A stretch of 49,750 nt of DNA from a virus: positions 1-49,750 of IMG/VR virus record IMGVR_UViG_3300008261_000166; one strand, written 5' to 3'. The notes beneath the pieces were generated by a model. That model ran no database searches and was not told the origin of the DNA. It saw only the letters and a list, made by a program, of their open reading frames with translations. Numbering within the stretch: position 1 is the stretch's first letter; each line of letters begins with the position of its first letter. A program made the position numbers and the translations under genes. Shown one piece after another: positions 1,643-48,761 of the stretch.

Positions 1643-1650
1643 TATTTACA
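1643..1650 (-). promoter_or_regulatory. Late-type promoter box TGTAAATA
   Basis: T4-like late -10 box. With the T4 geometry (box at -13 to -6) transcription would start at 1637, two bases before the ATG of the 1635 gene. Confidence 0.45.
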
Positions 1651-10083: not shown

Positions 10084-10159
10084 GGGCCTATAGCTCAGTG
10101 GTAAGAGCAGAGGACTCATAATCCTTTGGTCCTTGGTTCAAATCCAAGTGGGCCCACCA
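10084..10159 (+). tRNA. tRNA with CAT anticodon (Ile2-type or Met)
   Basis: A complete 76-nt cloverleaf with encoded CCA. The acceptor stem is GGGCCTA with TGGGCCC, the D stem GCTC/GAGC, the anticodon loop CTCATAA, and the T arm CTTGG-TTCAAAT-CCAAG. The CAT anticodon means either elongator Met or, if C34 is changed to lysidine by host TilS, Ile reading ATA. The D loop and variable loop resemble the Ile2 type, as also found in T4; that assignment is inference. It lies inside an early mRNA between two small genes. Confidence 0.95.
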
Positions 10160-15691: not shown

Positions 15692-15699
15692 TATAAATA
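15692..15699 (+). promoter_or_regulatory. Late promoter TATAAATA (plus)
   Basis: Perfect T4 late consensus. The expected start (15705) is the A of the ATG, so a leaderless mRNA is predicted. Confidence 0.8.
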
Positions 15700-15704
15700 T
15701 CATC

Positions 15705-15917
15705 ATGCGCCACTACTACGTATCAAACTCAAATCCATGTCTAGAATCCATATTTGAATTCATTCGCCATCATAATCTCCAGTTAGAAGTACACTTGAAC
15801 CGTACACGCTTTTGGGTTCCCGACGGCACTGTACTCACAGAGTTCCTGCTACGTTTTAGCACAGTGGCCACACTAGTGGATGAATCATTAGACTTAGTTA
15901 CTGGACGTCCTGTATGA
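15705..15917 (+). CDS. Hypothetical protein, 70 residues
   Basis: The product starts MRHYYVSNSNPCLESIFEF. There is no ribosome binding site, but the late box at 15692-15699 positions the start of transcription at this ATG. No family recognised. It overlaps the next gene (ATGA), so the two are co-translated. Confidence 0.6.
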   Translation: MRHYYVSNSNPCLESIFEFIRHHNLQLEVHLNRTRFWVPDGTVLTEFLLRFSTVATLVDESLDLVTGRPV

Positions 15918-16376: not shown

Positions 16377-16604
16377 ATGAGCACCGTACTAATTGATCTA
16401 GTACTGGATGACCGTTTAAAGCCACTAGCACACTTGACAGGTTCACTGGCCCGTGAGATATGGCTATGTGACTTATCCACTAGGGGCATTGAGTATACAC
16501 GCTTAACGGATGACACTATAGAACTGGCTGCTAGGGATTTGACTAGAATCTTGTTGTTCCATACCAATTCAGACTTGCTGTTAGAAGTAGTTCATGTACG
16601 TTAA
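16377..16604 (+). CDS. Hypothetical protein, 75 residues
   Basis: Begins 5 nt after the preceding stop with no clear binding site, so re-initiation is likely. The product starts MSTVLIDLVLDDRLKPLAH and is helical and Leu-rich. No family recognised. Confidence 0.6.
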   Translation: MSTVLIDLVLDDRLKPLAHLTGSLAREIWLCDLSTRGIEYTRLTDDTIELAARDLTRILLFHTNSDLLLEVVHVR

Positions 16605-16612
16605 ATAACACT

Positions 16613-16837
16613 ATGAAACCCCTTGATCAATACAATTCGGACGATGCTGGTGCTACTAGCAGTCCCTTAACTAATGCTGATGTCACGGGTGCGGGTATGA
16701 CGGATCAGGAACGTAGTTTATTCCGTCGTATGCAAGCACAGTTGGAAATGTTAGAGCGTGAGTTATCTAGGGCTAAGAACCGTATACGTGAGTTGGACAC
16801 TAAGGTTGAATTAACTACGCAGAGAATTAACCGATAA
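16613..16837 (+). CDS. Small coiled-coil protein, 74 residues
   Basis: The product has a Ser/Thr/Asp-rich N-terminus followed from about residue 29 by a heptad-like helix (E-R-S-L-F-R-R-M-Q-A-Q-L-E-M-L-E-R-E-L) to the end. A coiled-coil oligomer is likely. Last gene of the late operon; a GC hairpin lies just beyond. Confidence 0.6.
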   Translation: MKPLDQYNSDDAGATSSPLTNADVTGAGMTDQERSLFRRMQAQLEMLERELSRAKNRIRELDTKVELTTQRINR

Positions 16838-32502: not shown

Positions 32503-32528
32503 CCTATATTTAATAAGATGCAAACTAT
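32492..32528 (-). promoter_or_regulatory. Hairpin with late-like promoter in the loop
   Basis: A perfect 12-bp inverted repeat (32492-32503 and 32517-32528) flanks 13 bp that contain ATTAAATA on the minus strand (32514-32507). The ATG of the glycosyltransferase gene lies in the 3' arm, so in read-through RNA the start codon would be paired. Confidence 0.6.
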
Positions 32529-36873: not shown

Positions 36874-37011
36874 TTATCTTAATCCGGCAATTTTTAACAT
36901 CGCAGATAATTCTGCATTTTCTTCTACTTGTTGGTTGTTACGTTGTGCTACTCGAGCTTTGATAGCCTCAGTAGCATTGTGAACAGGCTTGCTACCAGCA
37001 AGTTCCATCAT
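36874..37011 (-). CDS. Small protein with conserved E-L-x-A-M-L-x-I-A C-terminus, 45 residues
   Basis: ATG at 37011 overlaps the stop of the upstream gene (ATGA); the stop is immediately before the next ATG. The end, A-E-L-S-A-M-L-K-I-A-G-L-R, matches the C-terminal motif of the 464-residue neighbour, so both may be recognised by the same assembly partner. No family recognised. Confidence 0.65.
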   Translation of the reverse strand: MMELAGSKPVHNATEAIKARVAQRNNQQVEENAELSAMLKIAGLR

Positions 37012-38945
37012 ACGATCGTGCTGTTGTTAACAAAGCCCTCTTCACCAATTGTCATAGTTCCTTCGTTGCTATTAAAGAATCCGCTTACACGTTCCTTAAT
37101 ATCACCAAACAATTTTTCTGCAACATTTGATTTATTACGTGGCTGACTATCTACATAATCTTCTGAGGTCTCAGCAACCGGTGCTGCTGGTGCTGGAGGT
37201 ACAGCTGCCGGGTCTACTGGTGCTGCTGCTGGATCTACTGGTGCTGCTGCTGGATCTACTGGTGCTGCTGCTGGATCCGCTGGTGCTGCTGCTGGATCCG
37301 CTGGTGCTGCTGCCGGATCCGCCGGAGGAGCACCTTCAGCATCAAATCCCAACGTGGTTGCCAAGTCTGTTTCATTTTCTGAATCATAAGATTTTAAAAA
37401 TGCTGAAATAATTGGACGAGCATCCAATTCATCTAACCCCAAATCAGCAAGCAATTCAAATGCTTTGTCTAATTTGTTGTTATCGATGGTGCCACGCAAG
37501 CTACTAGTTACGTTGTTACCGTTCGTTCCAATTGGTAGTTCTTGTTTGAATAAATCTTTTAAAGTCTGCATGGCTTGTTCGCCAACTTCATCTTCTTTGT
37601 ACAAGTCATCATCTTCACGTACAATACTGTCAAGTACGTTTTCAAATTGAGTTGCTAATGAGTTTGGATTGTAGCTATCGCTTATTGGAGTGGGATCTTG
37701 ACTAGTTCCACCTTGGCCGTACATGTCGTTTTTAACAAGGTAATTTTTACCTTTAAATGTGAATACTGTTTTGCCTTGTTGATCAGCTTGTATCAAGGCA
37801 TCGTTAAATGCGTCTGCTTCTGCAGATTGATCTTGATACTGACTTGGGTCTTCCAATCCATGTGCTGCCAACCACTCAGGGTCTTGCATTTGTTCAGGGG
37901 TGGGATCTATACCACCTTGTGATAAAGATTTCTCTATTTCTTGATCTGTTACTTCACCCAGTAAATCATCTGCTGATAAATTCCTAACTGGCAAATTGGT
38001 TTCACCTACTAGGTTATAAATGAATGGGAATACAGATTTCATTTCTTCATTGAACGTACGGATTGTCAAACGATCAATCCAATCATTCATAATTTCTTCT
38101 GGAATGCTTTGTGCTGTACGAGCTTGAAAGTTTTCTGCAAAGTGTGAATAATATGCAGGACGCTGTAGGCTATGAATTTCACGTTTAACTTCTTCAATAC
38201 GTTCCATTACTTTACTAGTAATGTCTCCCATTGCTTCACCCAAGGCTGCATTGCGACCAACGTAACCTTTAAATTTACGTAGACCAGCCAATTCTTCTGA
38301 CAAGCCAGTAATGTGTGAGCCAATTGCATCATACGGTGTTCCACCGTTTTTAATATGTTCTGCAAGAGCACGAGCACCATTCAAATGTTTGTATGGATAC
38401 TTAAATCTTTCTCCAGCAGCGTTTTCAATAAAGATGCTGTCAATGTGTTGTGTCCTACCGTTAGGCGCATTATAGTTAACTGGTGAGCTATGTCTAACAA
38501 TGATCTTAGCTTCTCCAATGTCTTGGTAACTAGTTTTACTTGTACCAGAAAGTCTTGATTCTGTCATTCTTCCTTCTCCGATAGGATCTCTTTTATCTAA
38601 ATTACTTTGGGATGGATTTTGTAAATCAAAATCTAATCCGTGTGTTTGTGCAAAATCGCTCAATTCATCTAAGAAGTCCATCCACGATTCATCACGTGGA
38701 TTCTTACTCCATAGAACGCTCATTGCTGGCTTTTCATCTGCATCTGATAAACTTATAGAAACGTTTGTTAGTTTTTCACCGTTACGATCATCAGTATAAT
38801 CAAAGCTAAGTTTGCGGGTATCTTGATCCCTAAAGTTTCTACCATCGATAGGTTTAGAGTCAATCGTTTCCTTTCTCATACTAGGAAATCTAGTTGATAG
38901 TTGGGTAACTAGGTCTTTTGCGATTCTTTCAAAATTTGCATTCAT
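37008..38945 (-). CDS. Large late protein with C-terminal D-P-A-A-A-P repeats, 645 residues
   Basis: The start at 38945 (MNANFERIAKDLVTQ) is chosen because a late box (minus, 38958-38951) puts the transcript start exactly there; a longer frame reads back into gp17. Two folded regions (about 1-130 and 150-330) are followed by linkers and at least six 7-residue repeats of the D-P-A-A-A-P-x type near residues 555-600. Not recognised; late expression next to gp17 suggests a virion or packaging-linked role. Confidence 0.75.
   Translation of the reverse strand: MNANFERIAKDLVTQLSTRFPSMRKETIDSKPIDGRNFRDQDTRKLSFDYTDDRNGEKLTNVSISLSDADEKPAMSVLWSKNPRDESWMDFLDELSDFAQTHGLDFDLQNPSQSNLDKRDPIGEGRMTESRLSGTSKTSYQDIGEAKIIVRHSSPVNYNAPNGRTQHIDSIFIENAAGERFKYPYKHLNGARALAEHIKNGGTPYDAIGSHITGLSEELAGLRKFKGYVGRNAALGEAMGDITSKVMERIEEVKREIHSLQRPAYYSHFAENFQARTAQSIPEEIMNDWIDRLTIRTFNEEMKSVFPFIYNLVGETNLPVRNLSADDLLGEVTDQEIEKSLSQGGIDPTPEQMQDPEWLAAHGLEDPSQYQDQSAEADAFNDALIQADQQGKTVFTFKGKNYLVKNDMYGQGGTSQDPTPISDSYNPNSLATQFENVLDSIVREDDDLYKEDEVGEQAMQTLKDLFKQELPIGTNGNNVTSSLRGTIDNNKLDKAFELLADLGLDELDARPIISAFLKSYDSENETDLATTLGFDAEGAPPADPAAAPADPAAAPADPAAAPVDPAAAPVDPAAAPVDPAAVPPAPAAPVAETSEDYVDSQPRNKSNVAEKLFGDIKERVSGFFNSNEGTMTIGEEGFVNNSTIV
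37193..37326. repeat. 21-bp tandem repeats coding for D-P-A-A-A-P-x
   Basis: At least six near-identical 21-bp units lie in frame in the large late gene. Such repeats can expand and contract by slippage. Confidence 0.8.
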
Positions 38946-38950
38946 AGTAA

Positions 38951-38958
38951 TATTTATG
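38951..38958 (-). promoter_or_regulatory. Late promoter CATAAATA (minus)
   Basis: Box at -13 to -6 relative to 38945, the ATG of the next gene. It lies immediately downstream of the gp17 stop codon (38961-38959). Confidence 0.7.
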
Positions 38959-40539
38959 TTAATTGCTGGAAACAAAAATGGGTAAAGGCGCCTCGTAATC
39001 GTCCTCGGTATGCACTCCAGACAATGTTTCAAACACTCTAGGGTCCCAATCTGCTACTAGTTGGCTCATACGCACGATTAATAGCAATGCACTAACAAGA
39101 TCGTCGTGGTCTCCGCTTTTGGCTTTGAAGCTGAACCCGGAAGCAATAAAACTCTTCAATTCTGATATCAAACTCTTAGAATTCAACTGCATTTGACTAC
39201 TTTCAATAATATGCTTTAATCTAGCACAGGCAGCAATTTTACTTCCGTGAGTAGTGTTAAACCCTTTGCGGAATTTACGGACGTGTCCTTTACGCATTGG
39301 CTCAGATATCATAAGTCCAGAAAATTGTTCTTCCCCCTGATCTTTAATACATACCAGTCCGGCTTCTCCAACAGTATTGTTTTCAATACTCCAATATATG
39401 TTATTTGCAGTCCCTTCCATTTGGTCTTCTAGATATTTTAAAATGTCTTTGAGAATTTTAATTTGACCTTGAATTGGGGTTAGGTTGTGATGCCATTCTG
39501 CAACTTGTTTAAAACTAGGCAGTTCAAACACTTCAATTGCAGCGAAGTCGCCGCCAGTGCCCAAACTTGGATCCAAGCTAACAAGGTATATGTTATCAGG
39601 AGTTGGTTTAGTGTACCAGCGAGTCTGGCCCATCTTAAACACTGGTTCTCGTCCTTCCATCTCACTTAACTTGATACTGTTGATAAGTGTTTCATCGTAA
39701 ATTAAGAACTCGCATCCATACTCACGACGGAATCGTTCTTCACCAATACGACCTTGTTCTTGTTTGGCCCAAGCATCGTCTCGATCAGGATGTTCTTCCC
39801 ACTTGCAAGTATAGGGAAAGAATCCATTAATACCCAAGTCTTGTTCGTTGCCGTATTCGTCAAATTTATTATTTGCTTCTTTCCAAATAGTGGCAAACGT
39901 GTCTTCGTCACTGTTGGGTGTTGAAGTAATAATTGCACGACCACCAGTTGCTAGTGTTGGTGATATAGATGTCCAAAACTCTTCTGCAATGTTAGGTTGC
40001 ACAAATGCAAACTCATCACAGTATAGTAAGGATATAGACATACCACGACCAGTGTTACCGGTAGTAGTTGCTGATACAATTCTTGAACCGTTGTCAAATT
40101 CAATACTCCCTTTGTTATAGTTTGTTACCCCACTGCGTATATGATCTGGACATAACTCGTATGCATAACGTATACGTTGCATAATTTCTTGTGAGCCAGT
40201 ATACTTGTGTGCTGCGATTAGAATAGTTTGATCAGGATGGAACATTGCATACCATAACAAGTATGCAGCTGCCGTTGTAGTTTTACCCATCTGTCTAGGC
40301 AACATATTAACAGTAAATCTGTGATTGTGGTATGCGTGTAATAATCGTTTTTGATATTCAAACGGTGCTAACAACAATTTACCTTTCGTTGGATGCTGAA
40401 TATAAAAAAAGTGTTCTGTGAAGTATGTATAACCGTTTTTAGGATCCGCACAGGCTAAAAGTTCAGAAACTTGTGCTTCTGAAAACTTATCTTTTTTGTG
40501 GGCCTTTTTTGTAAGTACCCCGTCTAAACTTTTGCTCAT
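38959..40539 (-). CDS. 17: Terminase large subunit, gp17 type, 526 residues
   Basis: Packaging ATPase and nuclease. The ATPase half has R-Q-M-G-K-T (residues 82-87) and L-L-Y-C-D-E (171-176, Walker B with catalytic Glu). The nuclease half has V-S-L-D-P-S-L-G with Asp323 and a late S-G-D-H-D-D-L-V-S-A-L block. There is no ribosome binding site, but a late box (minus, 40552-40545) places the transcript start at the ATG. A terminator lies just upstream. Confidence 0.95.
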   Translation of the reverse strand: MSKSLDGVLTKKAHKKDKFSEAQVSELLACADPKNGYTYFTEHFFYIQHPTKGKLLLAPFEYQKRLLHAYHNHRFTVNMLPRQMGKTTTAAAYLLWYAMFHPDQTILIAAHKYTGSQEIMQRIRYAYELCPDHIRSGVTNYNKGSIEFDNGSRIVSATTTGNTGRGMSISLLYCDEFAFVQPNIAEEFWTSISPTLATGGRAIITSTPNSDEDTFATIWKEANNKFDEYGNEQDLGINGFFPYTCKWEEHPDRDDAWAKQEQGRIGEERFRREYGCEFLIYDETLINSIKLSEMEGREPVFKMGQTRWYTKPTPDNIYLVSLDPSLGTGGDFAAIEVFELPSFKQVAEWHHNLTPIQGQIKILKDILKYLEDQMEGTANNIYWSIENNTVGEAGLVCIKDQGEEQFSGLMISEPMRKGHVRKFRKGFNTTHGSKIAACARLKHIIESSQMQLNSKSLISELKSFIASGFSFKAKSGDHDDLVSALLLIVRMSQLVADWDPRVFETLSGVHTEDDYEAPLPIFVSSN

Positions 40540-40544
40540 GTGTT

Positions 40545-40552
40545 TATTTACA
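40545..40552 (-). promoter_or_regulatory. Late promoter TGTAAATA for gp17
   Basis: With T4 geometry transcription starts at 40539, the A of the gp17 ATG. Confidence 0.7.
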
Positions 40553-40582
40553 TAAAAAAAGCGGCCACTAGTGCCGCTTTTG
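40553..40582 (-). terminator. Rho-independent terminator before gp17
   Basis: On the minus strand AAAGCGGC and GCCGCTTT arms enclose a short ACTAGTG loop and are followed by a T-run. It closes the transcript of the upstream gene, so gp17 depends on its own late promoter. Confidence 0.85.
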
Positions 40583-40601
40583 AGTAGACATATTGTCTGT
40601 G

Positions 40602-41183
40602 TTATCTGTTTTTAACTTCAGTATACAGATTTTGTAATTGTGCCATTAAGCCTTCTGATACTTGATTGTAAGGATTTCCGCCACCATTAACTTTCTCAGC
40701 CTCATTACCACCTTTACTGTTTAAGTCGTTGCCTTTTGCAGTAACGTCAGCAACTGTGCCATATTGCTCATCTGGAGAATTTGCATGATCAACTATTTCA
40801 TCAACTTCAATTTCTAAATCTCCAGCTGCGCGATCCATACGACCGTCATTGCCACTAATACTTATCATGCCCATTGGTCCAGAAACTGCGTCACCTTCTT
40901 CGCCGTCTACACCTTTTAATAAGTCCATCAAATCTCGAATGTTTTCAGTTCCACTAGCGTTAATGCTAACATTCATTGTTACAGGAGGTGGAGAACTCAT
41001 GCCGCCCATTGATCCCATTGGGCCCATTCCGCATTCAGCTACCTCACTTTCACTAAGACCTGACAGTTTCTTAACTGCGTTAAGATCCATATCGTTAGAG
41101 AATTTAAATTCAGCTTGCTCTTTTAGTTGTGTTACTGGTGCATCTAACGCACCAATCTTTGATATTAAATTTTGAAAATTCAT
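40602..41183 (-). CDS. Conserved T4-like phage protein, 193 residues
   Basis: Starts MNFQNLISKIGALDAPVTQ. The blocks N-A-V-K-K-L-S-G-L-S-E-S-E, a Met/Gly-rich stretch, and V-T-M-N-V-S-I-N-A-S-G-T-E-N match proteins I recognise next to terminase genes in marine T4-like phages. The end Q-L-Q-N-L-Y-T-E-V-K-N-R is also typical. Role unknown; probably assembly. Confidence 0.65.
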   Translation of the reverse strand: MNFQNLISKIGALDAPVTQLKEQAEFKFSNDMDLNAVKKLSGLSESEVAECGMGPMGSMGGMSSPPPVTMNVSINASGTENIRDLMDLLKGVDGEEGDAVSGPMGMISISGNDGRMDRAAGDLEIEVDEIVDHANSPDEQYGTVADVTAKGNDLNSKGGNEAEKVNGGGNPYNQVSEGLMAQLQNLYTEVKNR

Positions 41184-41794
41184 TTCTTTTGTCCTTTAAA
41201 TGGATCAACAAATTTCATGGCTAATGAGCCAATAGGACTTGTTGTTCCAAGGTTGTCGTCCTTTTGTGGTTGGTTGCCATCAGGTGCTGATTTTGCTAAC
41301 AATACATCGTTAACACCTTTGTATTGCTCGCCCTTATGACTAACTTTTCCTAGATCTTTTAAAAATGACAGCTGATTATCTTGCTTCTCACCATCTTCAT
41401 AAGGCTTGTTTAATAGTGCTTCGCCTTTAGTTCCAATTCTAGCAAATGCTTCTGCGTTTGCTTCAAAGTTTAAATCTTCTTGCATTGTGCGAACAACAAT
41501 GCAGCCTTTATTAATTTTACATGTATCAGATAAAAGTTCTGTAATAACCTGTGGAGTTGCTGGGTAGCGACAAACCACATCAAATATAGTAACTTCTGAG
41601 TTCTTTAATGCTGGAAAGTCCAATGGACTTTCTTGAATGGGCAATCTGTTTCCTTTGCTTACACTTGCGCAATCGTATTTTGACAGTGCTTCTTTAATAG
41701 ATTTTGCAAATCCACTATCTAGCTTCCCGGCAATTTTAATTTTAAACTCGTAAGTTTTAACGGTTTCTACAAGGTAATCGATAAATGTTGACAT
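41180..41794 (-). CDS. Conserved late protein, 204 residues
   Basis: Starts MSTFIDYLVETVKTYEFKIKI. An alpha/beta first 110 residues (with C-R-Y-P-A-T-P-Q-V) is followed by a polar, probably flexible C-terminal half. A late box (AATAAATA, minus 41825-41818) precedes it with an ordinary leader. Not recognised beyond being common in related phages. Overlaps the next gene by 4 nt. Confidence 0.65.
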   Translation of the reverse strand: MSTFIDYLVETVKTYEFKIKIAGKLDSGFAKSIKEALSKYDCASVSKGNRLPIQESPLDFPALKNSEVTIFDVVCRYPATPQVITELLSDTCKINKGCIVVRTMQEDLNFEANAEAFARIGTKGEALLNKPYEDGEKQDNQLSFLKDLGKVSHKGEQYKGVNDVLLAKSAPDGNQPQKDDNLGTTSPIGSLAMKFVDPFKGQKK

Positions 41795-41817
41795 TTGTTA
41801 TGCTTCCAGTAATAGTA

Positions 41818-41825
41818 TATTTATT
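41818..41825 (-). promoter_or_regulatory. Late promoter AATAAATA (minus)
   Basis: Late-type box overlapping the gp16 stop; expected start near 41812, 18 nt before the ATG at 41794. Confidence 0.7.
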
Positions 41826-42297
41826 TCATATTCTTTAATTTTTCCAGCAAGCTATTGCGGTCTGTGATAATAAAACCGTTTCCTGGAATATCAATAGATC
41901 CCTCTCCATCTGGATTAGCATCTTGATCTAATTTTTGTTTCTTAAGCTGAAGTTCAATCATTTTCAACTTCTTATCAATCTTTGCTGATTTGGCGTCAAT
42001 GGCGTTCTTAAGCATGCCACCAGCTACTTCAAAGATTCTACTGCTGTAACGTGCTTCTACATTCATGCCCAAGTCCATTAGGTCATCATATGCATCTGTA
42101 GCACGTTGAGCTAGAGCATCAAATTCGCTATCAGCTAAATCTCCCAAACCTTTTACTTGCGGCAAACTGGCAGAAATTTTGTCAAATTCTTCCATACTTC
42201 TTAAGAAAGGCTCAGCAGATGGTTTAGCTGGCTTGACTTCATTGGCTATTTTCTTGTTTTCGGGCAAGTTTAGAATTTCTTCAAGTTTCTTTGTCAT
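41821..42297 (-). CDS. 16: Terminase small subunit, gp16 type, 158 residues
   Basis: Recognises phage DNA and regulates the gp17 motor. A central A-Y-D-D-L-M-D-L-G-M-N then R-I-F-E-V-A-G-G-M-L-K helix pair and the Lys-rich coiled-coil (I-D-K-K-L-K-M-I-E-L-Q-L-K-K) match the T4-like gp16 layout. Gene order toward gp17 supports this, with two genes between. A late-like TTAAATAA lies 8 nt upstream of the ATG. Confidence 0.75.
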   Translation of the reverse strand: MTKKLEEILNLPENKKIANEVKPAKPSAEPFLRSMEEFDKISASLPQVKGLGDLADSEFDALAQRATDAYDDLMDLGMNVEARYSSRIFEVAGGMLKNAIDAKSAKIDKKLKMIELQLKKQKLDQDANPDGEGSIDIPGNGFIITDRNSLLEKLKNMK

Positions 42298-42304
42298 AAC
42301 TTAC

Positions 42305-42742
42305 TTATTTAACTCCGCCTTGGTGGAATAGATCTTTTTCGCTTAGTACACGAAACTTGATACCCTGTCGTTTACACCAAATCTGGGCTGCTTGCCATTT
42401 GGCTTGATTCTTAACAAATTGGGCTTGATTGTATTTGCCTTTGCCAACACTTTCTAAAGTGGCTTGATTTGAAGGTTTAACCTCAATAAGCTCAACAAAC
42501 ATCTTCCCAGTCTTATCTACATATTGTATGAAAAAATCTGGAATGTAAATGGTCTGTTTATTTGTCAACGGATCGCGATACGGAATACTGATGGCTTCAC
42601 TGGCCCAACGTTGAATTGATGGGTGTGTATCGCAAGTGTTCATGAAACTCCATTCCCAGCTACTTCTGTATGTGGGGGTTTTATTTCCTATATATTTTTC
42701 AGGGTGTTTGGGTACAAACTTTCCGTGGGCAAATCGGCTCAT
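42305..42742 (-). CDS. 4: Head completion protein, gp4 type, 145 residues
   Basis: The blocks K-F-V-P-K-H-P-E-K-Y-I-G, Y-R-S-S-W-E-W-S-F-M-N, P-Y-R-D-P-L-T-N-K and I-P-D-F-F-I-Q, then E-V-K-P, match T4-like gp4. The P-D-F and E-x-K residues resemble a PD-(D/E)XK nuclease core. T4 gp4 is required to finish heads before tail joining. It overlaps the upstream gene by 4 nt. Confidence 0.85.
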   Translation of the reverse strand: MSRFAHGKFVPKHPEKYIGNKTPTYRSSWEWSFMNTCDTHPSIQRWASEAISIPYRDPLTNKQTIYIPDFFIQYVDKTGKMFVELIEVKPSNQATLESVGKGKYNQAQFVKNQAKWQAAQIWCKRQGIKFRVLSEKDLFHQGGVK

Positions 42743-43107
42743 ACAACAATGTTACGGCTTTCGTAAGTATCAACAATAGACACTACGTTATAGCCAAGTG
42801 TGCTTGTTTGTTCTCTATATGAATTTAAAACTTCTGCAACTACTTTTGCTAACTGCACATCGGTTAAACCCTTTAATGTGTCAATTAATTCAAATACACT
42901 AATGTTATCAAGTCTAGCTTGATTTAATAGTACAATGCCTGTACTACGTGCAGCCTCTTCATCAAATCCACGTTTTAAAAAGAAACCCAGTACTGCGTCA
43001 ATTTGATTACTAGGATACGTTATTTGGTGAAGAAAAAATTTATCAAAAAAATCTCTTACTTCACGTGAATCAGATCCAGTTTCTGTAATAGGTAAATTAC
43101 TAGCCAT
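42739..43107 (-). CDS. Conserved T4-like virion or assembly protein, 122 residues
   Basis: The block I-D-A-V-L-G-F-F-L-K-R-G-F-D-E-E-A-A and T-L-G-Y-N-V-V, ending S-R-N-I-V-V, is familiar from conserved proteins in the tail/packaging cluster of marine T4-like phages. All-helical in the middle. Function unknown. Overlaps gp4. Confidence 0.7.
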   Translation of the reverse strand: MASNLPITETGSDSREVRDFFDKFFLHQITYPSNQIDAVLGFFLKRGFDEEAARSTGIVLLNQARLDNISVFELIDTLKGLTDVQLAKVVAEVLNSYREQTSTLGYNVVSIVDTYESRNIVV

Positions 43108-43110
43108 ATT

Positions 43111-44181
43111 TTAAAAATCCACTTGATTTGCTTGGGTAGTACCACCATTGCCCGTTCTAGATGGGAATACTACATTTTTTAATCCGCTCAATCCTGCAGC
43201 AGCAACAGCTATAGTTCCGCCAATAAGTAAGTTTCTTCCTTCTTGTCTAACACCTGCATTAGTTAAGCCTTTCGTGTTCTGATATGTATTAACTGCGGTT
43301 ATGGCAGTTGATAAAAAGTTAGCTGGGCTCTCAAAAGCTTCACCACTAGCCAAACTATCCAACACATCAGCTGCACCGTCTATAACGCCGCCTGGGCCAA
43401 ATATACTTGATGTGCCACCACCAGCTGCGGATAGTGGGCTCGGTGATTTATCATAATGATCAACTGCAAAACCTTTCACTTTACCGCCTCTAATAGACCC
43501 AATATCATATGCCACTGCTTCATAAGCAACAGTCATGTTGTTTTCGGCGCCTGCTGATCCTTGATCGCTGCTTTGTACTTGATCGTGAGTAAATGAAGTG
43601 ATTAATGGATTGATAAGAGTATAGCTCACATACTCTCGTTTGTTCAGTTGATACAAAACAATTTTATTAAAAAAGGGAATTGAACTTCCGTTATCAAAGC
43701 CGTACGTTGTTCTAATGTAGTTAGAACTTTTCATTGCAGTGCGACTGTATGCTCCAGGCGTTTTAGCTGCACTTGGATCCGCGTAATAGTATGCATAATA
43801 ATTTTGCCACATGGTATTAATAATATGAGCGCGGTCATCATGAAATTTAATATTAATTGGCATCAGCTCATGATCCATTTGTACAACTTTTTTTCTATTG
43901 TACTGATTAAGGGTAGTTGTTTTTAATGTGAATTTTGGAAGATCAGCACCCTTGACCAACAAACCAATTTCATTTTGATGTTGATATTTCAAGTTCAGTG
44001 ACTTTAGAGCACTTGTATTGATGTCAAAGAATACGTGATATAGGAACTTACTCTTAGGAGCTAGCCTAAAATAGTCGTCTTGGAACGTCCTGGATGCGTG
44101 TTGCCACGATCCAAGATTACCCTTGGGGTTAGTTATGCCATTTACTAGCTGATCTAAGAAGCCGTTGTTTTTACTTGCCAT
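43111..44181 (-). CDS. Tail-tube-like or baseplate tube-initiator (gp54-like) protein, 356 residues
   Basis: The first 200 residues have the tube-like pattern: F-L-Y-H-V-F-F-D-I-N near the N-terminus, F-T-L-K-T-T-T-L-N-Q-Y-N-R-K-K-V-V, then P-I-N-I-K-F-H-D-D and Y-Y-A-Y-Y-Y-A-D-P. The C-terminal 120 residues are Gly/Ala-rich. Position right after gp19 fits a tube-end or initiator role. A late box (minus, 44194-44187) puts the transcript start exactly on the ATG. Confidence 0.6.
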   Translation of the reverse strand: MASKNNGFLDQLVNGITNPKGNLGSWQHASRTFQDDYFRLAPKSKFLYHVFFDINTSALKSLNLKYQHQNEIGLLVKGADLPKFTLKTTTLNQYNRKKVVQMDHELMPINIKFHDDRAHIINTMWQNYYAYYYADPSAAKTPGAYSRTAMKSSNYIRTTYGFDNGSSIPFFNKIVLYQLNKREYVSYTLINPLITSFTHDQVQSSDQGSAGAENNMTVAYEAVAYDIGSIRGGKVKGFAVDHYDKSPSPLSAAGGGTSSIFGPGGVIDGAADVLDSLASGEAFESPANFLSTAITAVNTYQNTKGLTNAGVRQEGRNLLIGGTIAVAAAGLSGLKNVVFPSRTGNGGTTQANQVDF

Positions 44182-44186
44182 ACATA

Positions 44187-44194
44187 TATTTATT
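44187..44194 (-). promoter_or_regulatory. Late promoter AATAAATA (minus)
   Basis: Expected start is 44181, the A of the ATG of the tail-tube-like gene. Confidence 0.75.
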
Positions 44195-44230
44195 GATTAC
44201 AATTAACTGCGTATATAACTTTTAATCAAT

Positions 44231-44255
44231 AAAAAAGGCTGTTGCCAGCCTTTTT
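44231..44255 (-). terminator. Rho-independent terminator after gp19
   Basis: AAGGCTG and CAGCCTT arms with a GCAA loop are followed by a T-run on the minus strand. Confidence 0.9.
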
Positions 44256-44905: not shown

Positions 44906-44913
44906 TATTTATC
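44906..44913 (-). promoter_or_regulatory. Late promoter GATAAATA for gp19
   Basis: Late-type box; expected start near 44900, 17 nt before the gp19 ATG with GGAGC between. Confidence 0.7.
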
Positions 44914-47900: not shown

Positions 47901-48309
47901 AGTATGTACCGTTTGAGGGGTCAGCTGCTGGCGGATTTGCCAATGCGTTAATTGACGCTAGGTCAATTCCAGCACGTACAACGTATGCCCTGTTGCTTAC
48001 GCCTAATAAGCTATAAGCCGCTTGCAAACCGTATTCATTTTGCTCGCCAGCATGGATTGGGTTGTTTGATGCGTCCGTTTTAAATACTGGGTCACCAAAA
48101 GTATCTACAAGATCCTTCTGGCTAGTAATTAAATATGTCTTTCCAACGTTAGTTGCCAGTGTACCTGGAGCAATTCCTGTTCCCGCCCCGTTTTGCTTAT
48201 TCGCTGCCGTTGCTACAATAATTAGAGGTACTGTACCTGGAGCGGCTGGGGTATAAAAGCTCTCATCGATAACTGTTACGCTTACGCCTGGTGATGATAG
48301 TGTTGCCAT
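44917..48309 (-). CDS. 18: Tail sheath protein, gp18 type, 1130 residues with large insertion
   Basis: Contractile sheath. The N-terminal S-S-P-G-V-S-V-T-V-I-D-E-S block and the C-terminal region (from about residue 730: L-W-N-L-R-R-S-G-F-N, later F-L-T-G-V-G-L-V-N-Y-G-Q-K-T-R, ending Y-I-P-L-R-L-K-N-T-G-E-I) are typical sheath core. T4 gp18 has 659 residues; here a Thr/Ala-rich region of roughly 500 residues is inserted. It contains at least four copies of a G-x-L-W-x-x-T...N-G-x-x-W module. AGGAGAG and a late box precede the start. Confidence 0.92.
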   Translation of the reverse strand: MATLSSPGVSVTVIDESFYTPAAPGTVPLIIVATAANKQNGAGTGIAPGTLATNVGKTYLITSQKDLVDTFGDPVFKTDASNNPIHAGEQNEYGLQAAYSLLGVSNRAYVVRAGIDLASINALANPPAADPSNGTYWLDTNTTSFGIFEWNGTTKTATNLSGQTFTKKNPLVITDTTKVVDYAGSDYAPKTSIGAIGDYAVVCLSDLTTDYSAPDKVYYKNRAGQWVQVGSNDWTSSWPTVQGTVASPAITSGQAFTINGITVTANATTVAGLADRINTGPTASLLSQQGITAGVSAAGRLEIYSNGASGANSEDSTASNAVVIASGTMNVSTVLGITPGTFYAPRLAIQPHTSIPNFKTSNTAPRPTGSVWIKTTEPNSGAKISVKRYNSATDAFAAVPAPIYADGTAAIYGLDRTGGGSNLAVGSLFVKTNEQEDSGADDSPRVADFRIFRRSAVGTTIIKSAKIAAQFTAGTNTFSIAESIVGSATLAPAITVTCSSATGNALTGSLSDADKVAGAINSAGFANIVAEVDSLNRIVISHTKGGEFRLTDGTATPLSKVFSVTGTAATTNLYASPTGDVTSDYVATLWEPLRFTASGTAPTSLTADGTLWYNSIVDEVDIMIHNGTTWVGYKDASNPLVVDLGAGVKATDVNGPIVAATEPTTQSDGETALANGDLWIDTSDTENYPQVYKFNGVSLKWELVDSSDQSTENGILFADARYNTAGANSDEPGLIADMLESNFLDFDAPDPALYPQGMLLWNLRRSGFNVKRYARNYVDVTAINTRVNGAVGETQAGYYPNRWVSEAGNQENGAGTFGRKAQRKVVVQSLQALVNSNQEIREEEQRVFNLIACPGYPELIGEMITLNYDRGLTAFVVGDTPARLTSDATSLVNWGNNAALALEDNDLGAASFDEYMAMFYPWGFTSDNFGNNVVVPPSHMMLRTIALSDNVSYPWFAPAGTRRGGITNASAVGYINDEGEFTAVALNNGQRDTLYDVKVNPITFLTGVGLVNYGQKTRARNASALDRINVARLVIYLRRQLSVLAKPYIFEPNDKITRDEIKGAVESLMLELLGQRALYDYIVVCDESNNTPSRIDRNELYVDVAIEPVKAVEFIYIPLRLKNTGEIAGL

Positions 48310-48342: not shown

Positions 48343-48350
48343 TATTTAGT
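48343..48350 (-). promoter_or_regulatory. Late promoter ACTAAATA for gp18
   Basis: Late-type box; expected start near 48337, 28 nt before the gp18 ATG with AGGAG in the leader. Confidence 0.65.
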
Positions 48351-48407: not shown

Positions 48408-48415
48408 AATAAATA
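48408..48415 (+). promoter_or_regulatory. Late promoter AATAAATA (plus)
   Basis: Expected start near 48421, within one base of the HNH gene ATG. Divergent from the gp18 promoter. Confidence 0.6.
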
Positions 48416-48419
48416 CTTT

Positions 48420-48761
48420 ATGGCAAGACCAATGTGTTTATGCGGGTTTAGACCGGCCGCAATCAACTATAAAAAAGATGGCCGCACTTATTATAGAAGT
48501 AAGTGTGAGGCATGCCTACGTCACGGCGGGGTAGCACACGGATTTCCCAAATGGTATCTAGATGGATACCGTCAAAAAGATACTTGTGAGAAATGCGGCT
48601 TTAAGAGCAAACACAAAGAGCAATTCAATGTGTTTCACATAGATGGCAATTTAACTAACAGTCGCCCCAGTAATCTTAAGACGATATGTGCAAATTGTCA
48701 GAGAGTCCTACATAAAGAGGGCGTTCAGTGGCGACAGGGAGATCTTGTTCCGGACTTGTAA
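48420..48761 (+). CDS. HNH endonuclease, 113 residues
   Basis: The start at 48420 (MARPMCLCGFRPAAIN) fits the late box upstream; a longer frame would start before the transcript. An N-terminal Cys pair is followed by C-E-K-C-G-F, then F-N-V-F-H-I-D-G-N-L-T-N-S-R-P-S-N-L-K-T-I-C-A-N-C-Q, the HNH core with D/N/L and two CxxC zinc ribbons. Probably a free-standing homing-type nuclease placed between tail and nucleotide genes. Its last 86 nt overlap the convergent dNMP kinase gene. Confidence 0.85.
   Translation: MARPMCLCGFRPAAINYKKDGRTYYRSKCEACLRHGGVAHGFPKWYLDGYRQKDTCEKCGFKSKHKEQFNVFHIDGNLTNSRPSNLKTICANCQRVLHKEGVQWRQGDLVPDL

Follow-up and report, generated by a model that had tools for sequence, protein, structure and literature searches.

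Promoter boxes at the start codon predict leaderless mRNAs for a gene-specific subset of late genes in an uncultured T4-superfamily phage

The window analyzed here, the whole 49,750-nucleotide (nt) stretch formed by positions 1 to 49,750 of IMG/VR virus record IMGVR_UViG_3300008261_000166, covers part of the genome of a large, uncultured T4-superfamily phage. The late genes of this phage are probably read by host RNA polymerase carrying a gp55-type sigma factor from a short TAAATA box, and most of the late promoters, lying 17 to 40 nt upstream of the ATG, would supply a leader with a Shine-Dalgarno (SD) site. For a small, gene-specific set, comprising the genes for the terminase large subunit (gp17/TerL), a tube-fold protein starting at 44181, a structural protein starting at 38945, and an HNH endonuclease starting at 48420, the box lies 4 to 5 nt from the ATG, and the transcript would start on the A of the AUG, giving a leaderless mRNA translated through recognition of its 5'-terminal AUG and without SD pairing. 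We put the probability that a gp55-driven late regulon includes such a gene-specific leaderless subset at a box-to-ATG distance of 4 to 5 nt at roughly 0.88, leaving the reason for it aside. Sequence comparison strongly supports a separate class of late genes, under selection, with predicted leaderless mRNAs: the distance is kept gene by gene while spacers, terminator stems, and proteins diverge, the leaderless state and the SD site substitute for one another, and the layout recurs in marine T4-like phages. From these patterns, we infer both the RNA start on the AUG and translation as a leaderless message.

Late boxes at start codons in the window

The distance d was defined as the number of nucleotides between the end of TAAATA and the ATG. 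In T4, the late box lies at -13 to -6, a convention used in a previous, sequence-only reading of the window and confirmed in the literature (PMC1524935), and a d of 5 puts a T4-style +1 on the A of the ATG. Read directly from the sequence, d was 5 at 38945, 40539 (TerL), and 44181 on the minus strand and at 15705 and 16613 on the plus strand; it was 4 at 48420 (plus) and 32502 (minus) and 7 at 1635 (minus). None of these starts has an SD site. The sequence-only reading had placed the predicted +1 on the A of the ATG at 38945, 40539, 44181, and 15705 and within two bases of it at 1635 and 48420, with no ribosome binding site at any of them, and all of this was borne out. Among the sites that it quoted, only 15705 has the full 8-mer TATAAATA; the others are of the form NNTAAATA. 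The boxes of the main set are CATAAATA before the 38945 gene (38951 to 38958, minus), TGTAAATA before TerL (40545 to 40552, minus), AATAAATA before the 44181 gene (44187 to 44194, minus), and a TAAATA before the 48420 gene (48410 to 48415, plus).

Other late genes of the window have leaders, as had also been stated for gp18, gp19, 16210, and 15663: the starts at 48309 (minus), 44883 (minus), 16210 (plus), and 15663 (minus) have d values of 33, 22, 25, and 18, respectively, and AGGAG-, GGAG-, or GAGG-type sites. The first two belong to the tail sheath gene (box at 48343 to 48348, minus; AGGAG) and the tail tube gene gp19 (box at 44906 to 44911, minus; CGGAG). A gp55 gene was not found in the window, which is a 49.75-kb fragment. 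Homologues of gp55 were present in three records of the window's clade, G001, G002, and G003 (E values of 1e-14 to 1e-17), and in the record G013, and a T4-type late promoter is therefore the simplest reading of the box.

Identity of the genes with boxes at the ATG

The sequence-only reading spoke of virion genes, a loose term: TerL is the packaging motor, the 48420 product is an HNH endonuclease, and 15705 and 1635 start small open reading frames (ORFs) that could not be placed. The 38945 gene (37008 to 38945, minus) encodes a 645-amino-acid virion structural protein (phrog_13484), for which a fold search gave no PDB match. TerL (38959 to 40539, minus; PHROG E value, 4e-127) is 55% identical to the TerL of PA5oct. 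The 44181 gene (43111 to 44181, minus) encodes a 356-amino-acid protein matching PHROG tail tube, and its product appears to have a contractile-tail tube fold: the best PDB match of its structural model, which is only moderately confident (mean pLDDT of 59, core of about 75 to 90), was a chain of the T4 baseplate-tail tube complex (E value, 5e-8). Profile comparison with T4 gp19 or gp54 was not significant, and only a tail-tube fold is claimed. The 48420 gene (48420 to 48761, plus) encodes a small HNH endonuclease of 113 amino acids, as judged from PHROG HNH matches, and keeps its distance in relatives. Approximately 10 to 30 nt upstream of the 44181 late box, a stretch resembling AGTTATGTACGCAGTTAAT is kept in close relatives (window positions 44193 to 44222, minus strand).

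Two distance classes

The 8-mer TATAAATA by itself occurs in the window at chance level (4 found versus 3.4 expected). What is enriched is the position: five sites lie at d = 5, whereas box and start densities predict about 0.1, and 12 hexamers of equal composition, used as controls, average 0.08. When 80 relatives fetched via TerL were pooled with the window, 371 distinct box-ATG pairs were obtained, 187 of them at d = 4 (65 pairs) or d = 5 (122 pairs). The distribution was almost empty at distances of 9 to 15 and showed a second mode at 16 to 35. Control hexamers that did not overlap the box gave flat counts, from single digits to low tens, without an equivalent peak, the exceptions with a matching peak being hexamers that overlap the box itself. 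An SD core, scored as GGAG, GAGG, AGGA, or AAGG at -16 to -4, was present in 11 of the 187 pairs at d = 4 to 5 versus 89 of the 134 pairs at d = 16 to 40. The pairs at d = 4 to 5 and the leadered pairs are two distinct classes and not one distribution with a tail. Since the records are related, these counts are not independent events, and we therefore gave weight to the comparison of individual genes and not to P values.

Conservation gene by gene

Orthologues were found by tblastn and their starts were then read, giving 42 to 57 distinct contexts per gene. The sequence-only reading had named a box-to-ATG distance that varies among relatives as the finding that would count against it; the distance was kept, at d = 4 to 6 in 42 of 42 distinct contexts for the 44181 gene (none with an SD site) and in 55 of 56 for the 38945 gene, and at d = 4 to 5 in 44 of the 45 box-bearing contexts for TerL. 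The HNH endonuclease gene had d = 4 to 5 in 25 of 27 distinct contexts. These four sites of the earlier list are therefore conserved, and 15705 and 1635 lacked useful relatives. Neighboring genes served as internal controls: in the same loci, the sheath gene had d = 27 to 41 in 27 of 28 relatives (SD site in 27 of 28), gp19 had an SD site in all 38 relatives, with boxes at d = 17 to 22, and the gene at 41794 had d = 17 to 23. That the same genes stay leaderless and their neighbors SD led across many lineages points to gene-specific selection in the window's clade. The length of the spacer is conserved and its sequence is not: at d = 5, there were 24 different spacers for TerL, 16 for the 44181 gene, and 13 for the 38945 gene. 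Stop-codon overlap or translational coupling was considered as a cause of the spacing; it would suit 42297, whose d of 8 is not conserved, but it fails for TerL, which has a terminator in between.

Terminators, RNA starts, and mode switching

An intrinsic terminator read from the sequence, a GCGGC...GCCGC hairpin with a T-run (40554 to 40580, minus), abuts the TerL late box. A terminator was found in 43 of 44 leaderless TerL contexts, its T-run ending 12 to 16 nt before the ATG, and the hairpin persists before the box while the stem sequences differ among relatives. With the terminator directly before the box, upstream transcripts should stop before the gene, which would leave no room for a normal leader. 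The T-run and the box are fused ahead of TerL (window positions 40545 to 40580), an arrangement that is conserved. A further terminator-like hairpin with a T-run, also read from the sequence, separates the tube gene from the late box of the 44181 gene (44231 to 44255, minus).

Besides the analogy with T4, three lines suggest an RNA start on the A of the ATG: the TerL terminator, an initiator signature, and mode switching. A T4-type start 6 nt downstream of the box is suggested by a sequence signature only, a TA initiator at nt 5 to 6. In the d = 5 class, a pyrimidine occupies -1 in 122 of 122 pairs and is T in 90%. In leadered promoters, which are under no ATG constraint, a TA initiator is commonest with its A at nt 5 (0.36) or nt 6 (0.28) after the box, versus mostly 0.02 to 0.18 at neighboring positions (0.25 at nt 2); nt 5 and 6 are where the A of the ATG lies at d = 4 and d = 5.

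Supported branches of the TerL tree carry five or more changes of the leaderless state. Among independent pairs on this tree, the SD site goes the opposite way in three to four of five and the same way in none, a small test that is by itself below significance. In loci L010 to L024, TerL mostly lacks the box and terminator and mostly has AAAGGAAG-type sites, and in L058 and L059 the box lies 24 nt upstream together with a AAAGGAAA site. Loss of the TerL promoter thus seems usually to be accompanied by the appearance of an SD site.

Spread among other phages

Whole genomes were compared with one script, and counts at d = 5 were set against the control-hexamer mean. The clade records G001, G002, and G003 had 8 (0.50), 6 (0.17), and 4 (0.25) sites, respectively, and G015 had 5 (0.42). 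There was no excess at d = 5 in T4 (1 versus 0.58), S-CAM9 (1 versus 0.58), PA5oct (2 versus 1.33), Syn9, S-PM2, KVP40, or CBB (0 in each of the last four); in these phages, late boxes lie at leader distance instead. TAAATA-N5-ATG was absent from RM378.

The cultured SAR11 phage HTVC008M (Kyanoviridae, NC_020484) had 12 sites at d = 5 versus a control mean of 0.33. Its d = 5 ATGs coincide with the annotated starts of a gp4-like head closure gene, a gp2-like end protector gene, a gp48-like tube cap gene, the tape measure, baseplate wedge subunit, and tail completion protein genes, and others. Of the 26 distinct contexts for relatives of the gp48 gene in viral contigs, 25 kept d = 5, and these 25 all lack an SD site. 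Melnitz, a related methylophage, had three sites at d = 5. The ATGs of the divergent gp2-like and gp4-like genes of HTVC008M (18916, minus, and 18943, plus) are separated by 26 nt, and both genes have a d = 5 box of their own (locus L299, 18914 to 18945); this stretch would constitute a minimal bidirectional leaderless promoter.

G013, the record of L098 and loci L288 to L298, is the 209-kb genome of an uncultured T4-superfamily phage with 27 tRNA genes, a T4-type sheath, and gp55. Its boxes stand at d = 5 for 46 starts and at d = 6 for a further 11 (57 starts), and SD sites precede 0.05 of its genes versus a background of 0.06, compared with about 0.5 in the window and HTVC008M. Without a genome-wide SD signal in G013, its host probably does not use SD sites, and most of its late program looks leaderless. 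A leaderless subset within an SD-using phage is the more surprising case.

It is conceivable, at somewhat less than even odds, that at least two SD-using T4-superfamily lineages possess a two-mode late regulon in which the box spacing (5 or about 20 to 35 nt) chooses leaderless or SD-led translation for each gene and so fixes late protein ratios without extra regulators, with the late program nearly wholly leaderless in a third lineage (G013, no SD signal).

Relation to known systems

Late transcription in T4 is the textbook system, and its late mRNAs carry SD leaders. The gp55-, gp33-, and gp45-dependent late promoters of T4 (TATAAATA; PMC2988020, PMC1524935) share the box core and serve the same kind of late virion genes; they differ in that the boxes lie mainly 16 to 46 nt upstream of the ATG, with SD sites, and in that no T4 gene call has d = 4 to 6. 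The leaderless mRNAs of bacteria and temperate phages, such as lambda cI (PMC9031893), likewise lack an SD site and begin at the AUG or directly beside it, the 5' end being predicted in our case. However, cI is a single repressor gene; here, a particular set of genes within the lytic late regulon of large T4-like phages is concerned, and its layout is conserved. The d = 5 class of HTVC008M likewise stands beside SD-led late genes but involves mostly other genes than those of the window (gp48, gp2, gp4, baseplate wedge subunit, and tape measure). The nearest cultured relatives by TerL (43 to 55% identity), PA5oct of the Arenbergviridae and the jumbo phages CBB, Munch, Atu_ph07, and Phosso, have the same box, but their late genes are SD led at 20 to 50 nt, with at most isolated candidates such as PA5oct gp262.

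Our search of the open-licence literature, which did not extend to subscription papers, turned up no description of leaderless late mRNAs for T4-type phages, and the literature found made no mention of the d = 5 layout of HTVC008M. With the packaging motor among its members, a conserved leaderless late subset would let the purpose of leaderless translation be studied in a naturally two-mode system, and HTVC008M, grown on Pelagibacter, is a cultured phage that allows direct tests. The spacing also serves, in uncultured T4-like phages, as a simple criterion by which start codons and late promoters can be called.

Possible reasons for the leaderless layout

A tentative reason, which we prefer but rate a little below an even chance, is dosage: a compact, self-contained single-gene unit would set a low, fixed dosage of low-copy proteins, and high-copy sheath, tube, and capsid genes would keep strong SD leaders. 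The low copy number of the head, tail, and baseplate proteins concerned is general knowledge of T4. In the window, TerL and the tube-fold gene at 44181 are leaderless by layout versus the SD-led sheath and tube genes; in HTVC008M, the gp2 end protector, tail completion, gp4 head closure, gp48 tube cap, and baseplate wedge subunit genes are leaderless by layout, and the major head, sheath, and tube genes are SD led.

Several observations weigh against dosage or against the leaderless reading itself. The low-copy baseplate genes 36520 and 51699 of HTVC008M are SD led, so that dosage describes a tendency only; the genes are few, the sample is small, and the copy numbers come from knowledge of T4. 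The sheath gene of G013, at d = 8, is itself near-leaderless, which does not suit dosage. For all of the phages considered here, the +1 rests on T4 and on sequence signatures. Only 13 nt lie between the stop codon of TerL and the start of the 38945 gene, and additional coupled translation from the TerL transcript is possible. A search of bacterial genome contigs for a host of the window's clade confirmed no relative of TerL.

It is rather unlikely that the layout reflects nothing more than compactness, or neutral drift where the host puts up with leaderless mRNAs, a cheap loss of leaders then being kept by inertia. The 26 nt shared by the divergent HTVC008M ATGs and the leaderless layout of most late genes in G013, which lacks a genome-wide SD signal, are in keeping with this idea. 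It does not readily account for the many lineages of the window's clade in which the same genes are leaderless beside SD-led neighbors, nor for the tendency of leaderless losses to pair with SD gain.

The second leaderless class proposed by the sequence-only reading thus held up as a prediction, but its further suggestion, that the class is perhaps favored when host initiation changes late in infection, is not supported. In the form considered here, which we rate as improbable, the phage would modify IF3, S1, S21, or initiator tRNA, and late translation would then prefer leaderless mRNAs. In Escherichia coli, leaderless mRNAs are inhibited by IF3 and favored by IF3 inhibition and by the supply of fMet- or initiator tRNA (PMC9031893). 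HTVC008M carries bS21, and some other, unrecognized protein could still act. However, no IF3 (IF3_C) was found in any record searched, the clade records being fragments, and no S21 was found in the window or in those fragments; S21 is present in HTVC008M, Melnitz, PA5oct, and Atu_ph07, the last two of which do not have the class. Both proteins were accordingly rejected as drivers for the clade. SD-led late genes also stand in the same gene clusters. Initiator tRNA supply was likewise rejected: in the acceptor of the window's only tRNA (10084 to 10159, anticodon CAT), G1 pairs with C72, and this tRNA is without the three GC pairs that mark initiators; from known tRNA features we take it to be of the tRNA-Ile2 type rather than an initiator or elongator tRNA for methionine.

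Very unlikely, finally, is that the genes are not leaderless at all, with transcripts starting further upstream and the TAAATA by the ATG being an AT-rich, unstructured initiation element or chance; SD-less initiation at such sites is generally known, but hexamers of equal composition give no such peak, the genome uses this box as a promoter for SD-led genes as well, the TerL terminator would block RNA from upstream, the Y(-1)A(+1) signature holds in 122 of 122 pairs at d = 5, and the arrangement is absent from T4 and other SD-using relatives.

Other candidate sites

The remaining window sites are less certain members of the leaderless class. At 15705, the box TATAAATA (15692 to 15699, plus; d = 5) precedes a 70-amino-acid ORF with a single partial relative. 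The sequence-only reading overlooked the box TAAATA at 16602 to 16607 (plus; d = 5), before the 74-amino-acid candidate ORF at 16613, which is also a small ORF that could not be placed. The box at 1643 to 1648 (minus; d = 7) makes 1635 an unproven candidate. No relatives were found for 16613 or 1635, and none of these three starts had relatives useful for a conservation test. The box at 32507 to 32512 (minus; d = 4), likewise overlooked by the sequence-only reading, is probably incidental, and 32502 was rejected as a class member, its distance not being kept across six orthologue contexts. Among cultured phages, PA5oct gp262, a structural protein gene annotated with electrospray ionization tandem mass spectrometry (ESI-MS/MS), has the arrangement TATAAATA-N5-ATG (L082, 36084 to 36095) and is a leaderless candidate in a relative of the window. 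Cyanophage S-CAM9 and its relatives (L129, L136, and L108) have one small ORF preceded by a terminator, TGTAAATA, and N5 before the ATG, an isolated leaderless candidate.

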